Positions 10,294 to 63,915 of a stretch of DNA of 64,000 nucleotides are shown here, in pieces. The stretch's first letter is position 1; every line of letters starts with the position of its first letter. The notes beneath the pieces are model-generated. The model was not told the DNA's origin, searched no databases, and worked only from the letters and a program-made list of their open reading frames with translations. The position numbers were made by a program, and so were the translations under genes. The stretch lies in the NCBI RefSeq assembly GCF_007991735.1, contig NZ_BJYX01000009.1:1-64000 (forward strand). Direction: 5' to 3'. Source of the stretch: Terrabacter aerolatus. GTDB taxonomy: Bacteria > Actinomycetota > Actinomycetes > Actinomycetales > Dermatophilaceae.

Positions 10294-11337
10294 GTGAGCG
10301 ACGTGTCGAGCGAGGGCGTCTTCAGGCAGGTGTCGACCGGGCACCTGCCCGAGGACACCACGGTCCGCGAGCTGCTGCAGGCGGCATACGACCAGCACCG
10401 GCACGTCGTCGACGGCGCCGTCGCGACCTACATCCCGCAGCTGGCGCAAGCCGATCCCACGTCGTGCGCGGCGTCGGTGGCCTCGGTCGCAGGACGTGCG
10501 TTCGAGGTCGGCGACGTCGACGCGCGCTTCTCGATCCAGAGCGTGTCGAAGCCCTTCGTGCTCGCCCTCGTCGTGGAGGCGGTCGGGGGTGAACGGGCAC
10601 GGAACCTGCTGGGCGCCAACGCGACCGGGCTGCCGTTCGACTCCGTCATGGCCGTCGAGCTGCACGACCACCGCACCATGAACCCCATGGTCAACGCCGG
10701 CGCCATCGCGACGACGAGCCTGGTCCCCGAGATCGCCGCTGCGCGCGGTCACCACGGCGGGGCGTGCGAGGACTGGGACGTCGTCATCGACGGGCTGTCG
10801 GCGTTCGCGGGGCGGCGCCTCGACGTCGACGAGGACGTCTACGCCTGCGAGTCGGGCACCAACCTGCGCAACCGCGGCATCGCCCACCTGGTCCACAGCC
10901 ACGGTCGCCTCCACTGCGACCCCGACCTCGCGACCGACCTCTACACGCGGCAGTGCTCGGTGTCCGTCGACGTGCACGACCTCGCCGTCATGGCGGCGAC
11001 GCTGGCCGACGGCGGCGTCAACCCGCTCACGGGGGAGCGGGTCGTCTCGGCTCGGACGTGCTCGGAGGTGCTCGCGGTCATGGCGACCGCAGGGCTCTAC
11101 GAGCTGTCGGGCGACTGGCTCTGGGAGGTCGGTCTGCCCGGAAAGAGCGGAGTCAGTGGTGCCGTCGTGACGGTGGCGCCGGGCAAGGGTGGCCTCGCCG
11201 TGTGGTCGCCGCCGCTCGACGCGGCCGGCAACAGCGTCCGCGGCGGCCTCGTCACCCGGACCCTGAGCCGGTCGATGGGCCTCAACGTCTTCGCCTCCGC
11301 GGCCGACCCGCACGTCGTGGAGCCGCGCCGCGACTAG
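10294..11337 (+). CDS. glsA: Glutaminase
   Basis: Hydrolyses glutamine to glutamate and ammonia. The 347-residue protein has the serine-dependent beta-lactamase-like fold of bacterial glutaminases. SIQSVSKPF near residue 80 holds the catalytic Ser-X-X-Lys; NPMVNAGAIA (about residues 130-140) and the ESGTNLRNR and GLPGKSGVSG stretches are family signatures. GTG start at 10294. The stop codon overlaps, base for base, the stop of the convergent lipoprotein gene at 11334-11336. Confidence 0.93.
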   Translation: MSDVSSEGVFRQVSTGHLPEDTTVRELLQAAYDQHRHVVDGAVATYIPQLAQADPTSCAASVASVAGRAFEVGDVDARFSIQSVSKPFVLALVVEAVGGERARNLLGANATGLPFDSVMAVELHDHRTMNPMVNAGAIATTSLVPEIAAARGHHGGACEDWDVVIDGLSAFAGRRLDVDEDVYACESGTNLRNRGIAHLVHSHGRLHCDPDLATDLYTRQCSVSVDVHDLAVMAATLADGGVNPLTGERVVSARTCSEVLAVMATAGLYELSGDWLWEVGLPGKSGVSGAVVTVAPGKGGLAVWSPPLDAAGNSVRGGLVTRTLSRSMGLNVFASAADPHVVEPRRD

Positions 11338-11891
11338 CTCGTCGCAGGGGCCGCGGGCGAGGCGGGCGAGACCGGCGAGACGGTGGGCAACCCGAAACCG
11401 TCGACGAAGACGTTGACCGTGACGCTGCCGGCCTTCTCGAACCGGAAGGTCACGGGCAGCAGCCGCCCGGCCCGGACGTCGACCTTGAGGTCGACCATCT
11501 CGAGGTGCAGGCCGCCGGGGTACTGCAGCGAGACGACGCCTGCTGCCGGGACGTCGACCTGGACCGGGCCCTCGGCGCCGTCCGTGCCCTGGCGCATGAC
11601 GACCTGTCGCGCGTAGACCGTGCTGACGGCCACGAGCCGGTCGGCGGCCGTGCCGTCGTTGGCGAGCGTCGTGAACAGGCCCGTGTTGGACCCGCCGAGC
11701 AGCTTGCGGTCCTCCGGGGCGTCGATGCGCGTCGCGAGGAGGCGGAGGCTGCCCACCTGCGCGTTGACGCTCGTGCCCCGGGCGGGGTCGGTGATGCGTG
11801 ACTGCACCGCGTCCGGCTGCGACGAGCACGCGGCGAGCGGCCCGAGGCCGGCGGTCAGGAGAGCGGCGACGACGATCGAGCGGGGCCTCAT
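11334..11891 (-). CDS. Lipoprotein with PCu(A)C (copper chaperone)-like domain
   Basis: 185 residues, ATG at 11891. A short signal peptide ends in a lipobox (LGPLAACSS), so the mature protein should be lipid-anchored outside the membrane. The domain contains PGGLHLEMVDLKVDVRAG followed by LLPVTFRFEKAGSVTVNV, which matches the layout of PCu(A)C/DUF461 copper chaperones. The metal site is partly altered: His and Met are spaced H-L-E-M and only one further Met (QVVMRQG) is obvious. The C-terminus is an Ala/Pro/Ser tail. Copper handling is a reasonable guess, not shown. No other copper gene is adjacent. Confidence 0.65.
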   Translation of the reverse strand: MRPRSIVVAALLTAGLGPLAACSSQPDAVQSRITDPARGTSVNAQVGSLRLLATRIDAPEDRKLLGGSNTGLFTTLANDGTAADRLVAVSTVYARQVVMRQGTDGAEGPVQVDVPAAGVVSLQYPGGLHLEMVDLKVDVRAGRLLPVTFRFEKAGSVTVNVFVDGFGLPTVSPVSPASPAAPATS

Positions 11892-12056
11892 GTCGGCCAC
11901 GCTAGGAGCCGAGGTCGCCGCGCGACTCCCCCGTCGGGGGTGATCCGGGGCGTCTTGTTCGCGCCCGCCCCCGTCGGGTACTGGGCACGTGGCGGCATCG
12001 TCGCCCTTCAACCAGCAGGGGCGGCGGTGGCGTCGGGTCGTCGGCGGACAGCGAGA

Positions 12057-12084
12057 CGGCACCCGCTCGGGGGATCGGGTGCCG
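12057..12084. terminator. Hairpin between lipoprotein and devR genes
   Basis: Nine-base arms (CGGCACCCG and CGGGTGCCG) surround a 10-base loop. There is no T-run, as is common in high-GC actinobacteria. It lies downstream of devR and upstream of the lipoprotein gene on the same strand, so it may end devSR transcription. The surrounding gap 11892-12144 shows no other gene. Confidence 0.5.
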
Positions 12085-12144
12085 CCTCACCCTCACCATC
12101 GCCGTTCGCGACGATGCGTTACAGACACCCGAGGGCGTATGCCG

Positions 12145-12948
12145 TCACGCCCGCCCGCGCCCCTCGGCGCGCCGGGCCCCGTGCGGCGTCGCGTGGTGGG
12201 TCTCGGGCCGGGTCCCGGGTGGCGTGCCGGCACCCGGGTCGTGGCCGTGCTGGGCACCGTAGACCGCCGCCTGGGTGCGGCGCTCGAAGCCGAGCTTGGC
12301 GAGCAGCCCGGAGACGTAGTTCTTCACCGTCTTCTCGGCCAGGTGCAGGCGAGCGCCGATCTGCCGGTTCGTCAGACCCTCGGCGATGAGGCCGAGGATC
12401 TCCTGCTCGCGGTCGGTCAGTGAGTCCGCCGGCGACCACTGTGCCGGGTGTCCCGGCCGCCCTCCGTGACCCGCTCCGGCCCGTTCGGCGTCGTGGCTCG
12501 CGTCGGCCGCGTCGTCGCCCGGCCGGCGGATGCGCTCGAGCAGACGCTCGACGAGGGCCGGGTCGATGAGGGAGTGCCCGGCGGCGACGTGCGCCACCGC
12601 CTCCGTGAGCGAGGGGCCGCGGATCTGCTTGAGCAGGTAGCCCGAGGCGCCGGCCATGACCGCGGCGAAGAGGGCGTCGTCGTCGTCGTAGGAGGTGAGG
12701 ATGAGGCAGCGGGTGCCCGGGCTGCTCACCTGCACCTCGCGACACACGTCGATGCCGCTCCCGTCGGGAAGGCGCGCGTCGAGCAGGGCGACCTGCGGCG
12801 TGAGCGTCGGGATCCGACGCAGCGCCTCGGCCGCCGTGCCCGCCTCGCCGACGACCCGGAAGCCGTCGTGGGACTCGAGCAGGTCGATGAGTCCCCGGCG
12901 GACGATCTCGTGGTCGTCGAGCAGGAAGACCGTGATCGGCGTGGTCAC
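12145..12948 (-). CDS. devR: DevR/DosR-type LuxR response regulator
   Basis: 267 residues. The N-terminal receiver has the acidic pair in LLDDHE, the phospho-accepting Asp in [13 protein letters not shown] and the conserved Lys in [10 protein letters not shown]. The C-terminal LuxR HTH reads [52 protein letters not shown], very close to DevR/DosR. A His-rich tail of about 30 residues ([13 protein letters not shown]) is extra. GTG 12948 overlaps the kinase stop (GTGA), so devS and devR are coupled. Expected role: a hypoxia/NO/redox dormancy regulon that would include the nearby usp and flavodoxin-like genes, whose shared promoter has a matching box. Confidence 0.87.
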
Positions 12949-63263: not shown

Positions 63264-63329
63264 CGCCCACCGGCGCCCGCTCGATTCATCAATCAGCCAC
63301 TCACGGCAAGTAACAGGAAGGAAGCCATC

Positions 63330-63716
63330 ATGGCGAAGCTCAGCACCGACGAGCTCCTTGACGCCTTCAAGGAGATGACCCTCATCGAGCTCTCGGAGTT
63401 CGTGAAGCAGTTCGAGGAGACCTTCGAGGTCACCGCTGCTGCCCCCGTCGCCGCCGCTCCCGCGGCCGGTGCCGGTGGCGCTGCCGCCGTCGAGGAGGAG
63501 GAGAAGGACTCGTTCGACGTCGTTCTCACCGCCGCCGGCGACAAGAAGATCCAGGTCATCAAGGAGGTCCGCGCGCTCACGAGCCTCGGCCTCAAGGAGG
63601 CCAAGGACCTCGTCGACGGCGCCCCCAAGCCCGTTCTCGAGGGTGTCGACAAGGCTGCGGCCGAGAAGGCCAAGGAGCAGCTCGAGGGCGCTGGCGCGAC
63701 CGTCGAGCTCAAGTGA
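63330..63716 (+). CDS. rplL: 50S ribosomal protein L7/L12
   Basis: 128 residues: [128 protein letters not shown]. Stalk protein that recruits translation factors. ATG 63330 after AGGAAGG. Complete. Confidence 0.98.
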
Positions 63717-63750
63717 TCTGACCCGGCTCTGCCGGGATCACTGCTCCACC

Positions 63751-63790
63751 GCGAAGGCGGGTCCGACCACCGGTCGGGCCCGCCTTTCGC
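63751..63790 (+). terminator. Terminator after rplL
   Basis: Long hairpin starting GCGAAGGCGGGTCCGACC paired with GGTCGGGCCCGCCTTTCGC (one wobble, one bulge), followed by GTTTGT. A smaller stem CCCGGC-TCT-GCCGGG at 63722-63736 precedes it. Confidence 0.85.
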
Positions 63791-63818
63791 GTTTGTCCCG
63801 CCGGTCACGGGCCACGAT

Positions 63819-63915
63819 GGCGCTCGCGTCGTGGAGCGTCCGCGGCCGTATGCCGGACCGGGGGCGCGGGGCGTGACGGCGCTCGCGGCGTGGAGCGTCG
63901 GCGGGCGTATGCCGG
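63819..63915. repeat. 38-bp imperfect direct repeat after rplL
   Basis: Positions 63819-63856 and 63878-63915 share GGCGCTCGCG, CGTGGAGCGTC and GTATGCCGG with few differences. Each copy ends in the GTATGCCG motif. No gene seen in 63791-64000. Confidence 0.75.

Follow-up and report, generated by a model that had tools for sequence, protein, structure and literature searches.

Introduction

The Neisseriaceae and the Pasteurellaceae are both Gram-negative families with type IVa pili, the uptake sequences of the former are free of strand skew, and the uptake signal sequence (USS) of the Pasteurellaceae has flanking AT-rich tracts. An actinobacterial host is Gram-positive and lacks the neisserial outer membrane; Micrococcus luteus belongs, in NCBI terms, to the same order as Terrabacter aerolatus. 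In the portions of the literature consulted, uptake sequences are described for the Pasteurellaceae and Neisseriaceae (PMC1939737; PMC2346458), and the DNA uptake sequence (DUS) of the Neisseriaceae is reported to occur in thousands of copies, as intergenic inverted pairs and in single-base dialects, with two dialects in some genomes and none in some relatives (PMC3630211). Tad genes are reported, in the part of the source used, as required for transformation of M. luteus (PMC4322843), and a passage of a 2025 review names Neisseria as an exception to indiscriminate uptake (PMC12236230). Here, we report that an octamer, GTATGCCG, noticed in a stretch of 64,000 bases of the T. aerolatus genome (contig NZ_BJYX01000009.1, positions 1 to 64,000; hereafter the window), is overrepresented throughout that genome and is replaced by single-base variants in related genera, and we propose that it is probably a DUS running on a Tad pilus.

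Compared with the neisserial DUS as presented in the consulted sections of PMC3630211, the words of T. aerolatus and its family are alike in their abundance, intergenic inverted pairs and single-base dialects, in the occurrence of two dialects in one genome and in having dialect-less relatives; they differ in that the reported neisserial core has 12 bp and GTATGCCG 8 bp, and in that the host is a high-GC actinobacterium, in which a ComP-type receptor is not expected. Like the USS as described in PMC2346458, GTATGCCG is a short word that prefers one orientation relative to the reading frame (its copies in genes are 133 sense and 52 antisense), although the hosts are unrelated and the logo of GTATGCCG has no flanking AT-rich tracts. 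T. aerolatus has a Tad locus, as does M. luteus with its Flp/Tad-dependent transformation; however, M. luteus needs two tad loci, and the term 'uptake sequence' is absent from PMC8467076, a paper on M. luteus. The cyanobacterial HIP1 is, according to the excerpt used, also a highly iterated octamer, but one that is palindromic and tied to methyltransferases (PMC4390886).

Results

The octamer is overrepresented throughout the T. aerolatus genome

An earlier note on the window had reported 32 copies of the heptamer TATGCCG from position 10382 onwards. The window (72.6% GC) holds 35 exact copies, 20 TATGCCG and 15 CGGCATA; the 15 CGGCATA had been counted correctly, three of the TATGCCG had been missed (17 were given), and two sites (3496 and 8764) precede the given start, while all eleven coordinates listed were right. 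The roughly six copies it had expected from base composition agree with the 5.7 computed for both strands, and Markov models of order 1, 2 and 3 predict 1.6, 1.7 and 2.2. At orders 4 and 5 the expectation rises to 9.5 and 25.6, because high-order models mask the signal: in a 464-kb sample (the window plus 20 stretches of 20 kb from the T. aerolatus genome), TATGCC is followed by G in 255 of 264 cases. Since G also precedes the heptamer in 34 of the 35 window copies, the actual word is the octamer GTATGCCG, which accounts for 242 of the 255 heptamers in the sample. The word differs from its own reverse complement, and the flanks add no palindrome.

The comparison of all 7- and 8-mers with a Markov null, which the note had suggested, gave 255 heptamers in the sample vs 16.2 and 11.8 expected at orders 3 and 2. 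In the order-3 ranking the heptamer stands at the top of the 7-mers, and two octamers containing it, TATGCCGT and GTATGCCG, at the top of the 8-mers. Its one-mismatch neighbours are depleted or near expectation, the highest ratios being 2.0 for TATCCCG (11 vs 5.5), 1.65 for TACGCCG and 1.61 for GATGCCG. The whole genome (4,420,518 bases, 62 contigs) contains 1,131 + 1,152 = 2,283 copies of TATGCCG vs 110 + 120 = 230 of the reversed control word, and 1,072 + 1,091 copies of GTATGCCG, or 489 per Mb. The overrepresentation is therefore confirmed as real and genome-wide.

Copy number ranges from 6 to 16 per 20-kb stretch, the stretches being spread over 13 contigs, and the spacing is somewhat even (coefficient of variation (CV) 0.80 over 234 gaps, a value that short stretches bias downwards). 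The two strands are balanced over 21 stretches of 14 contigs (chi-square 11.2, df 21, p 0.96); strand skew was thus absent at the scale of these stretches, as distinct from a whole-replichore map. This balance speaks against Chi-like and replication-directing motifs.

Codon choice and gene context point to selection on the DNA word

When genes were predicted from codon usage with a simple script (coverage 89%), 185 of the 255 sample copies fell inside them, in keeping with the earlier observation that the word occurs on both strands, in genes and in gaps. Shuffling synonymous codons in all sample genes (20 shuffles) left 16.6 ± 4.7 copies vs the 185 seen. The codon override described in the note also held: Tyr-Ala is written TAT-GCC, Ala-Tyr GCA-TAC, Gly-Ile GGC-ATA at 42558 and 46610, and Arg-Met-Pro CGT-ATG-CCG at 51811, and across the sample 124 of 168 TAT codons stand before GCC and 14 of 19 ATA codons come after GGC. 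Outside genes the word is three-fold denser (1.37/kb intergenic vs 0.45/kb genic), and intergenic density depends on gene arrangement (convergent 2.22/kb, tandem 1.22, divergent 1.12). Neither counts near the Markov expectation, at low orders, nor an account by codon bias, against the codon shuffle, was found, these being the outcomes that the note had set against its own claim.

The word is also conserved. In three species of the genus of T. aerolatus, with 84-86% identical aligned DNA, 26 of 38, 35 of 44 and 27 of 37 sites are kept, compared with 39, 43 and 42% for octamers of equal composition (p 3e-4, 2e-6 and 2e-4). The codon-shuffle null, the rare codons, the intergenic excess and this conservation beyond matched words support the note's view that it is the DNA word, not the protein, on which selection acts.

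Copies also pair. Closely spaced inverted pairs of the form CGGCATAC...GTATGCCG number 19 in the T. aerolatus genome vs 6.6 expected, and an excess (p < 0.05) was found in 12 of the 17 genomes chosen for this computation; the expectation ignores intergenic clustering, so that part of the pair excess may stem from clustering. One such pair forms a hairpin between rplK and rplA (57033-57066), with GTATGCCG on its left arm (57040-57047, minus strand) and right arm (57053-57060, plus strand) and a fold of -30.9 kcal/mol (z -4.59); here and below, rplK, rplA and rplJ were named by reading translations.

The word is confined to one family, in which it has single-base dialects

By ribosomal protein L1, the closest named records are Intrasporangiaceae bacterium URHB0013 (97%), Humibacillus (92%), Knoellia (88%), and Janibacter and Arsenicicoccus (83%); NCBI places Knoellia and Humibacillus in the Intrasporangiaceae, Micrococcales. 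In 20.7 kb each, URHB0013 has 14 and Knoellia subterranea 10 copies of GTATGCCG, and Janibacter limosus and Arsenicicoccus piscis have 0; the remaining 75 fetched loci (1.33 Mb) contain 40 TATGCCG vs 58 control words. Among aligned window sites, 6 of 9 are common to URHB0013, 0 of 5 are kept in Humibacillus, which has another dialect, and 0 of 1 in Knoellia. The hairpin position between rplK and rplA is telling: Humibacillus has a hairpin there with GGATGCCG on both arms (9 GGATGCCG and 0 GTATGCCG in the 7.95 kb of its locus), in Knoellia both arms consist of GTATGCCG but in the order opposite to T. aerolatus, and in Janibacter and Arsenicicoccus the position is free of all these words.

The presence in relatives that the note had asked about was surveyed in 109 genomes of the family (Intrasporangiaceae in NCBI terms), 58 of which carry at least 300 copies of GTATGCCG. 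With this cut-off, G122 (295), G027 (293) and G133 (293) were counted as word-less, although G133 and G027 hold 785 and 752 copies of GTACGCCG. Outside the family, none of 241 genomes of the class exceeds 52 copies per Mb, the top count being 386 in 7.5 Mb with an own control of 176, and 22 genomes from other families of the order reach at most about twice the control word.

Where a family member lacks GTATGCCG, the neighbouring word with the highest enrichment often differs from it by one base, and the comparison of sequences indicates that GGATGCCG and GTACGCCG are single-base dialects of GTATGCCG that mostly follow genus. GGATGCCG is carried by six genomes at 2,099-4,480 copies (3,816 and 3,838 in genus g17, 3,949 in G034, 4,480 in G131, 2,195 in G074 and 2,099 in G108), vs 241-1,038 in other family genomes and 1,336 in G009. 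Two words can share a genome: three of these six also hold 361-1,217 copies of GTATGCCG, with about 1,200 in G074 and G108. GTACGCCG is carried by ten genomes at 1,125-4,185 copies (3,903, 4,185 and 2,111 in g62; 2,618 and 2,366 in g70; 2,216 in G031, 1,359 in G032, 2,529 in G135, 1,125 in G084 and 1,463 in G098), the next counts being the 785 and 752 above. Both dialects exceed the codon-shuffle null in genes, GGATGCCG with 38 vs 5.9 in G034 and GTACGCCG with 17 vs 3.1 in G070, 17 vs 3.1 in G078 and 28 vs 7.8 in G031; a further word, GTATGACG, does so in G011 (10 vs 1.5) and weakly in G012 (3 vs 1.1). In G034, GGATGCCG is denser between genes (2.73/kb) than within them (0.73/kb). All three words are absent from 38 of the 109 genomes, some of which have other words. 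A quick tree built from ComEC for 49 genomes requires a minimum of 7 changes in the presence of the three words and a minimum of 12 in the dialect state.

Competence genes and a prfB-linked Tad locus accompany the word in most genomes

ComEC was found in 105 of the 109 genomes, the four misses being assemblies of 330-760 contigs, and T2SSF (Tad) in 106. Both are nearly universal, and the presence of either was dropped as a simple discriminator. A type IVa pilus was likewise dropped as the uptake machine: its marker PilM (PF11104) occurs in 5 of the 109 genomes and was not found in that of T. aerolatus, which is why a ComP-type receptor is not expected.

The Tad locus, tadA-B-C-flp-tadE-F-G, adjoins prfB, ftsE, ftsX and smpB (the last three named by reading translations). 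In T. aerolatus it lies on contig C15. Pfam matches there comprise T2SSE, T2SSF (twice), TadE and Tad, and PrfB is confirmed by its PCRF and RF-1 domains; Flp and TadF of this locus had no Pfam match. In the com locus on C3, ComEC is recognised by Competence and lactamase-type domains and ComEA by SLBB and HHH domains. Around comEA/comEC, no gene was common in word-bearing yet missing from word-less genomes (50 loci from 49 genomes; 30 of these loci span no more than about 3.8 kb). Divergently beside tadA stands a gene of some 1,400 amino acids (L197:2328-6618 and homologues), in word-bearing and word-less genomes alike; it is retained in G075, which no longer has the Tad genes.

The TadF profile had no match in 14 of the 109 genomes, 12 of which are without any of the three dialects; of the other two, G106 ends mid-locus at a contig end and G034 is a real exception. 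The prfB site was read in 14 genomes, leaving out the incomplete G115 and G120: ten word-less genomes (G014, G021, G022, G071, G075, G086, G091, G092, G096 and G119) have no TadA-G in the 5 to 17 kb on the Tad side, G067, G025 and G121 have remnants, and G034 has no Tad genes there. Over 107 genomes (G106 and G114 left out), loss of this locus is associated with absence of the word: word and Tad are both present in 66, the word alone in 3, Tad alone in 25 and neither in 13 (Fisher p 7e-5, ignoring kinship); the p value is 1.5e-4 when the later words of G028, G103, G068 and G067 count as present. A prfB-linked Tad locus thus accompanies 66 of the 69 scored word-bearing genomes, G034 being an unexplained exception. 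In two of the three exceptions, G025 and G121 of genus g18 (L231:9549-15587 and L232:8973-16760), only remnants of the locus survive: after a fragment of TadA come 6-8 kb of 62% GC, in surroundings of about 71%, which separate the remnants; the insert of G121 has one copy of the word, and the genomes hold an undiminished 2,535 and 2,541 copies. Remnants, a low-GC insert and full word counts together look as if the machine had been lost recently.

Discussion

Based on these findings, we propose that GTATGCCG is probably a DNA uptake sequence running on the Tad pilus, because its features together match what is reported of the neisserial words: it is abundant and free of skew, forms inverted pairs, is in excess between genes, favours one reading frame and comes in single-base dialects. 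First, GTATGCCG would be a self tag recognised when free DNA enters the cell in natural transformation; DNA bearing the word would be taken in preferentially, so that the word would spread and be kept by recombination. Second, the uptake machine would consist of the prfB-linked Flp/Tad pilus together with ComEA/ComEC. Third, related genera would have shifted the recognised word by single bases, to GGATGCCG, GTACGCCG and others, the dialect being set by a DNA-contacting component, perhaps a minor pilin. The excess of the word, its conservation, dialects and layout and the presence of the machinery genes are observed, whereas its action in uptake, the participation of Tad and the dialect-setting component are inferred. 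Of the three parallels that the earlier note had drawn, DNA-uptake sequences fit best, with dialects, inverted pairs and no skew; Chi-like sites fit poorly, as the strands are balanced; and chromosome-organising sites are weighed below as an unlikely alternative.

That this is a third, independent uptake-sequence system, one that uses Tad/Flp in place of a type IVa pilus, comprises three or more whole-genome dialects within a single family and owes its specificity to a Tad-pilus or ComEA component, appears to us about as likely as not. To our knowledge, it would be the first uptake-sequence system in Gram-positive bacteria. Literature searches, whose scope left out preprints and most subscription papers, listed no report of an uptake word in actinobacteria, and the matches listed for the letters TATGCCG were unrelated by title. 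If the proposal is true, DNA self-tagging evolves repeatedly and on different machines, the whole actinobacterial family becomes a set of candidates for natural transformation, the word added to DNA would be a ready genetic tool, and the many dialects would amount to a natural experiment on the joint change of a receptor and thousands of genomic sites.

Several observations weigh against a DUS running on the Tad pilus. G034 carries its 3,949 copies of GGATGCCG although no TadF was matched in its genome and prfB has no neighbouring Tad genes (L230:1-17480), and G067 has a broken Tad locus with another word abundant. Conversely, TadF is kept in 25 word-less genomes, at least 3 of which (G028, G103 and G068) have another word, while none stood out in G058, G112, G079, G009 and G016. 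Only 4 independent pairs exist on the ComEC tree, so that a kinship-aware test of Tad against word has no power. No receptor for the word was found; Tad minor pilins are present, and inspection by eye of Flp, TadE and TadG in up to 30 loci revealed no dialect-specific residues. The word still occurs at 0.34/kb in stretches of 64-69% GC, and the low-GC insert of G025 has 3 copies in 6.0 kb, so that foreign-like DNA is only mildly depleted. In 5 of the 17 genomes (G097, G012, G011, G019 and G062) inverted pairs show no significant excess, and G023, where the excess is largest (39 vs 2.0), also has a raised count of the reversed control pattern (10). In contrast to GTATGCCG and GGATGCCG, GTACGCCG has no clear intergenic excess in the samples (intergenic vs genic per kb, 1.18 vs 1.02 in G070, 0 vs 0.99 in G078 and 0.42 vs 0.57 in G031). 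Finally, no transformation or uptake experiment in the family was found in the literature searched.

The word could instead be recognised by a chromosome-organising or nucleoid protein with which it co-evolves in each genus, or could double as a transcription-terminator element. Its genome-wide occurrence on both strands, the intergenic excess that peaks between convergent genes, the hairpin pairs and the somewhat even spacing would all suit such a protein, and dialects are possible with any DNA-binding protein. However, known organising sites are skewed or clustered near origin or terminus, whereas every 20-kb stretch, from 13 contigs, holds 6 to 16 copies without skew; and a structural role would hardly be dispensable, yet the 38 genomes without any of the three words include G058, a near neighbour of T. 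aerolatus on the ComEC tree (assembly 81% complete). With 185 of 255 copies inside genes, termination is not the main role. We therefore consider this explanation unlikely.

An iterated word linked to methyltransferases, as proposed for HIP1, is improbable: two orphan methyltransferases that recognise inner sequences of HIP1 are given as a clue to its function in the portion of PMC4390886 used, but HIP1 is palindromic and GTATGCCG is not, and the shift of a whole-genome word by a single base, together with its hairpin arms, is the pattern of an uptake sequence. A Chi-like recombination site recognised by AdnAB or RecBCD, or a motif oriented along replication like KOPS (FtsK-orienting polar sequences), would also be a non-palindromic, overrepresented and mostly genic octamer. 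Motifs of that type are skewed along the direction of replication, whereas GTATGCCG is balanced both over the 21 stretches and overall (1,131 vs 1,152 heptamers), and neither inverted pairs nor an intergenic excess would be expected of them, which makes this origin very improbable. Composition, codon-pair bias or mutation bias alone, for which the order-5 expectation of 25.6 of the window's 35 copies could be cited, has next to no chance of being the cause and was rejected by the Markov sample test, the codon shuffle and the sister-species conservation, with low-order expectations of 1.6-2.2, 16.6 vs 185 copies after shuffling, neighbours at most two-fold enriched and many family genomes at background.

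Other words in the family

An unbiased scan of selected genomes found GTATGCGG, a one- or two-base variant, in G028 (L283-L285; 13 vs 1.3 in genes). Another such variant, GTACGGCG, occurs alongside GTACGCCG in G098 (32 vs 8.6; L063, L170, L171 and L194) and G031 (17 vs 4.2; L074, L176 and L199). An unrelated word, CGAAGGGG/CCCCTTCG, is strongly overrepresented in genera g59 and g60, in loci of G103 (L275-L277, L190), G068 (L278-L279) and G067 (L166-L167, L243); G103 has 57 copies in genes vs 9.6 expected and 20 between genes, and hairpin pairs of the form CGAAGGGG...CCCCTTCG number 5 in G103 and G068, with 0 in the other order. On this branch the GTATGCCG-type word may have been replaced by the unrelated CGAAGGGG. 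Nothing word-like was among the five top words each of G058, G112, G079, G009, G075 and G016 (40-80 kb), and in shorter samples no conspicuous word emerged from G117, G010, G113, G017, G133, G018, G021, G071, G091, G119, G014 and G086.

Sites in the window

In genes, the window copies of GTATGCCG read as TAT GCC are at 3495-3502, 8763-8770, 31734-31741, 34072-34079, 40324-40331, 45827-45834, 50332-50339 and 58768-58775 on the plus strand, the last two common to locus L080, and at 17341-17348, 19879-19886, 22421-22428 and 23964-23971 on the minus strand. Reading as GCA TAC applies to 10382-10389, 32854-32861, 36387-36394 and 41112-41119 (minus) and, antisense, to 13863-13870 and 26956-26963 (plus), whereas 37187-37194 (plus) reads GTA TGC CGT, 42558-42565 and 46610-46617 (minus) read GGC ATA, and 51811-51818 (minus), where L080 has GGATGCCG, reads CGT ATG CCG. 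The heptamer without the leading G is at 29076-29082 (minus, in a gene). Gene edges hold the copies at 25558-25565 (minus), 42300-42307 (plus) and 48776-48783 (plus, common to L080). The intergenic copies outside the hairpins are all on the plus strand, at 12137-12144, 21118-21125, 54853-54860 (common to L080), 63848-63855 (after a gene ending at 63716, common to L080) and 63907-63914 (absent from L080). A second hairpin, upstream of rplJ (fold z -2.65 on the plus and -2.00 on the minus strand), has GTATGCCG on its left arm (62566-62573, minus, common to L080) and on its right arm (62578-62585, plus), where L080 has GTATGTCG.

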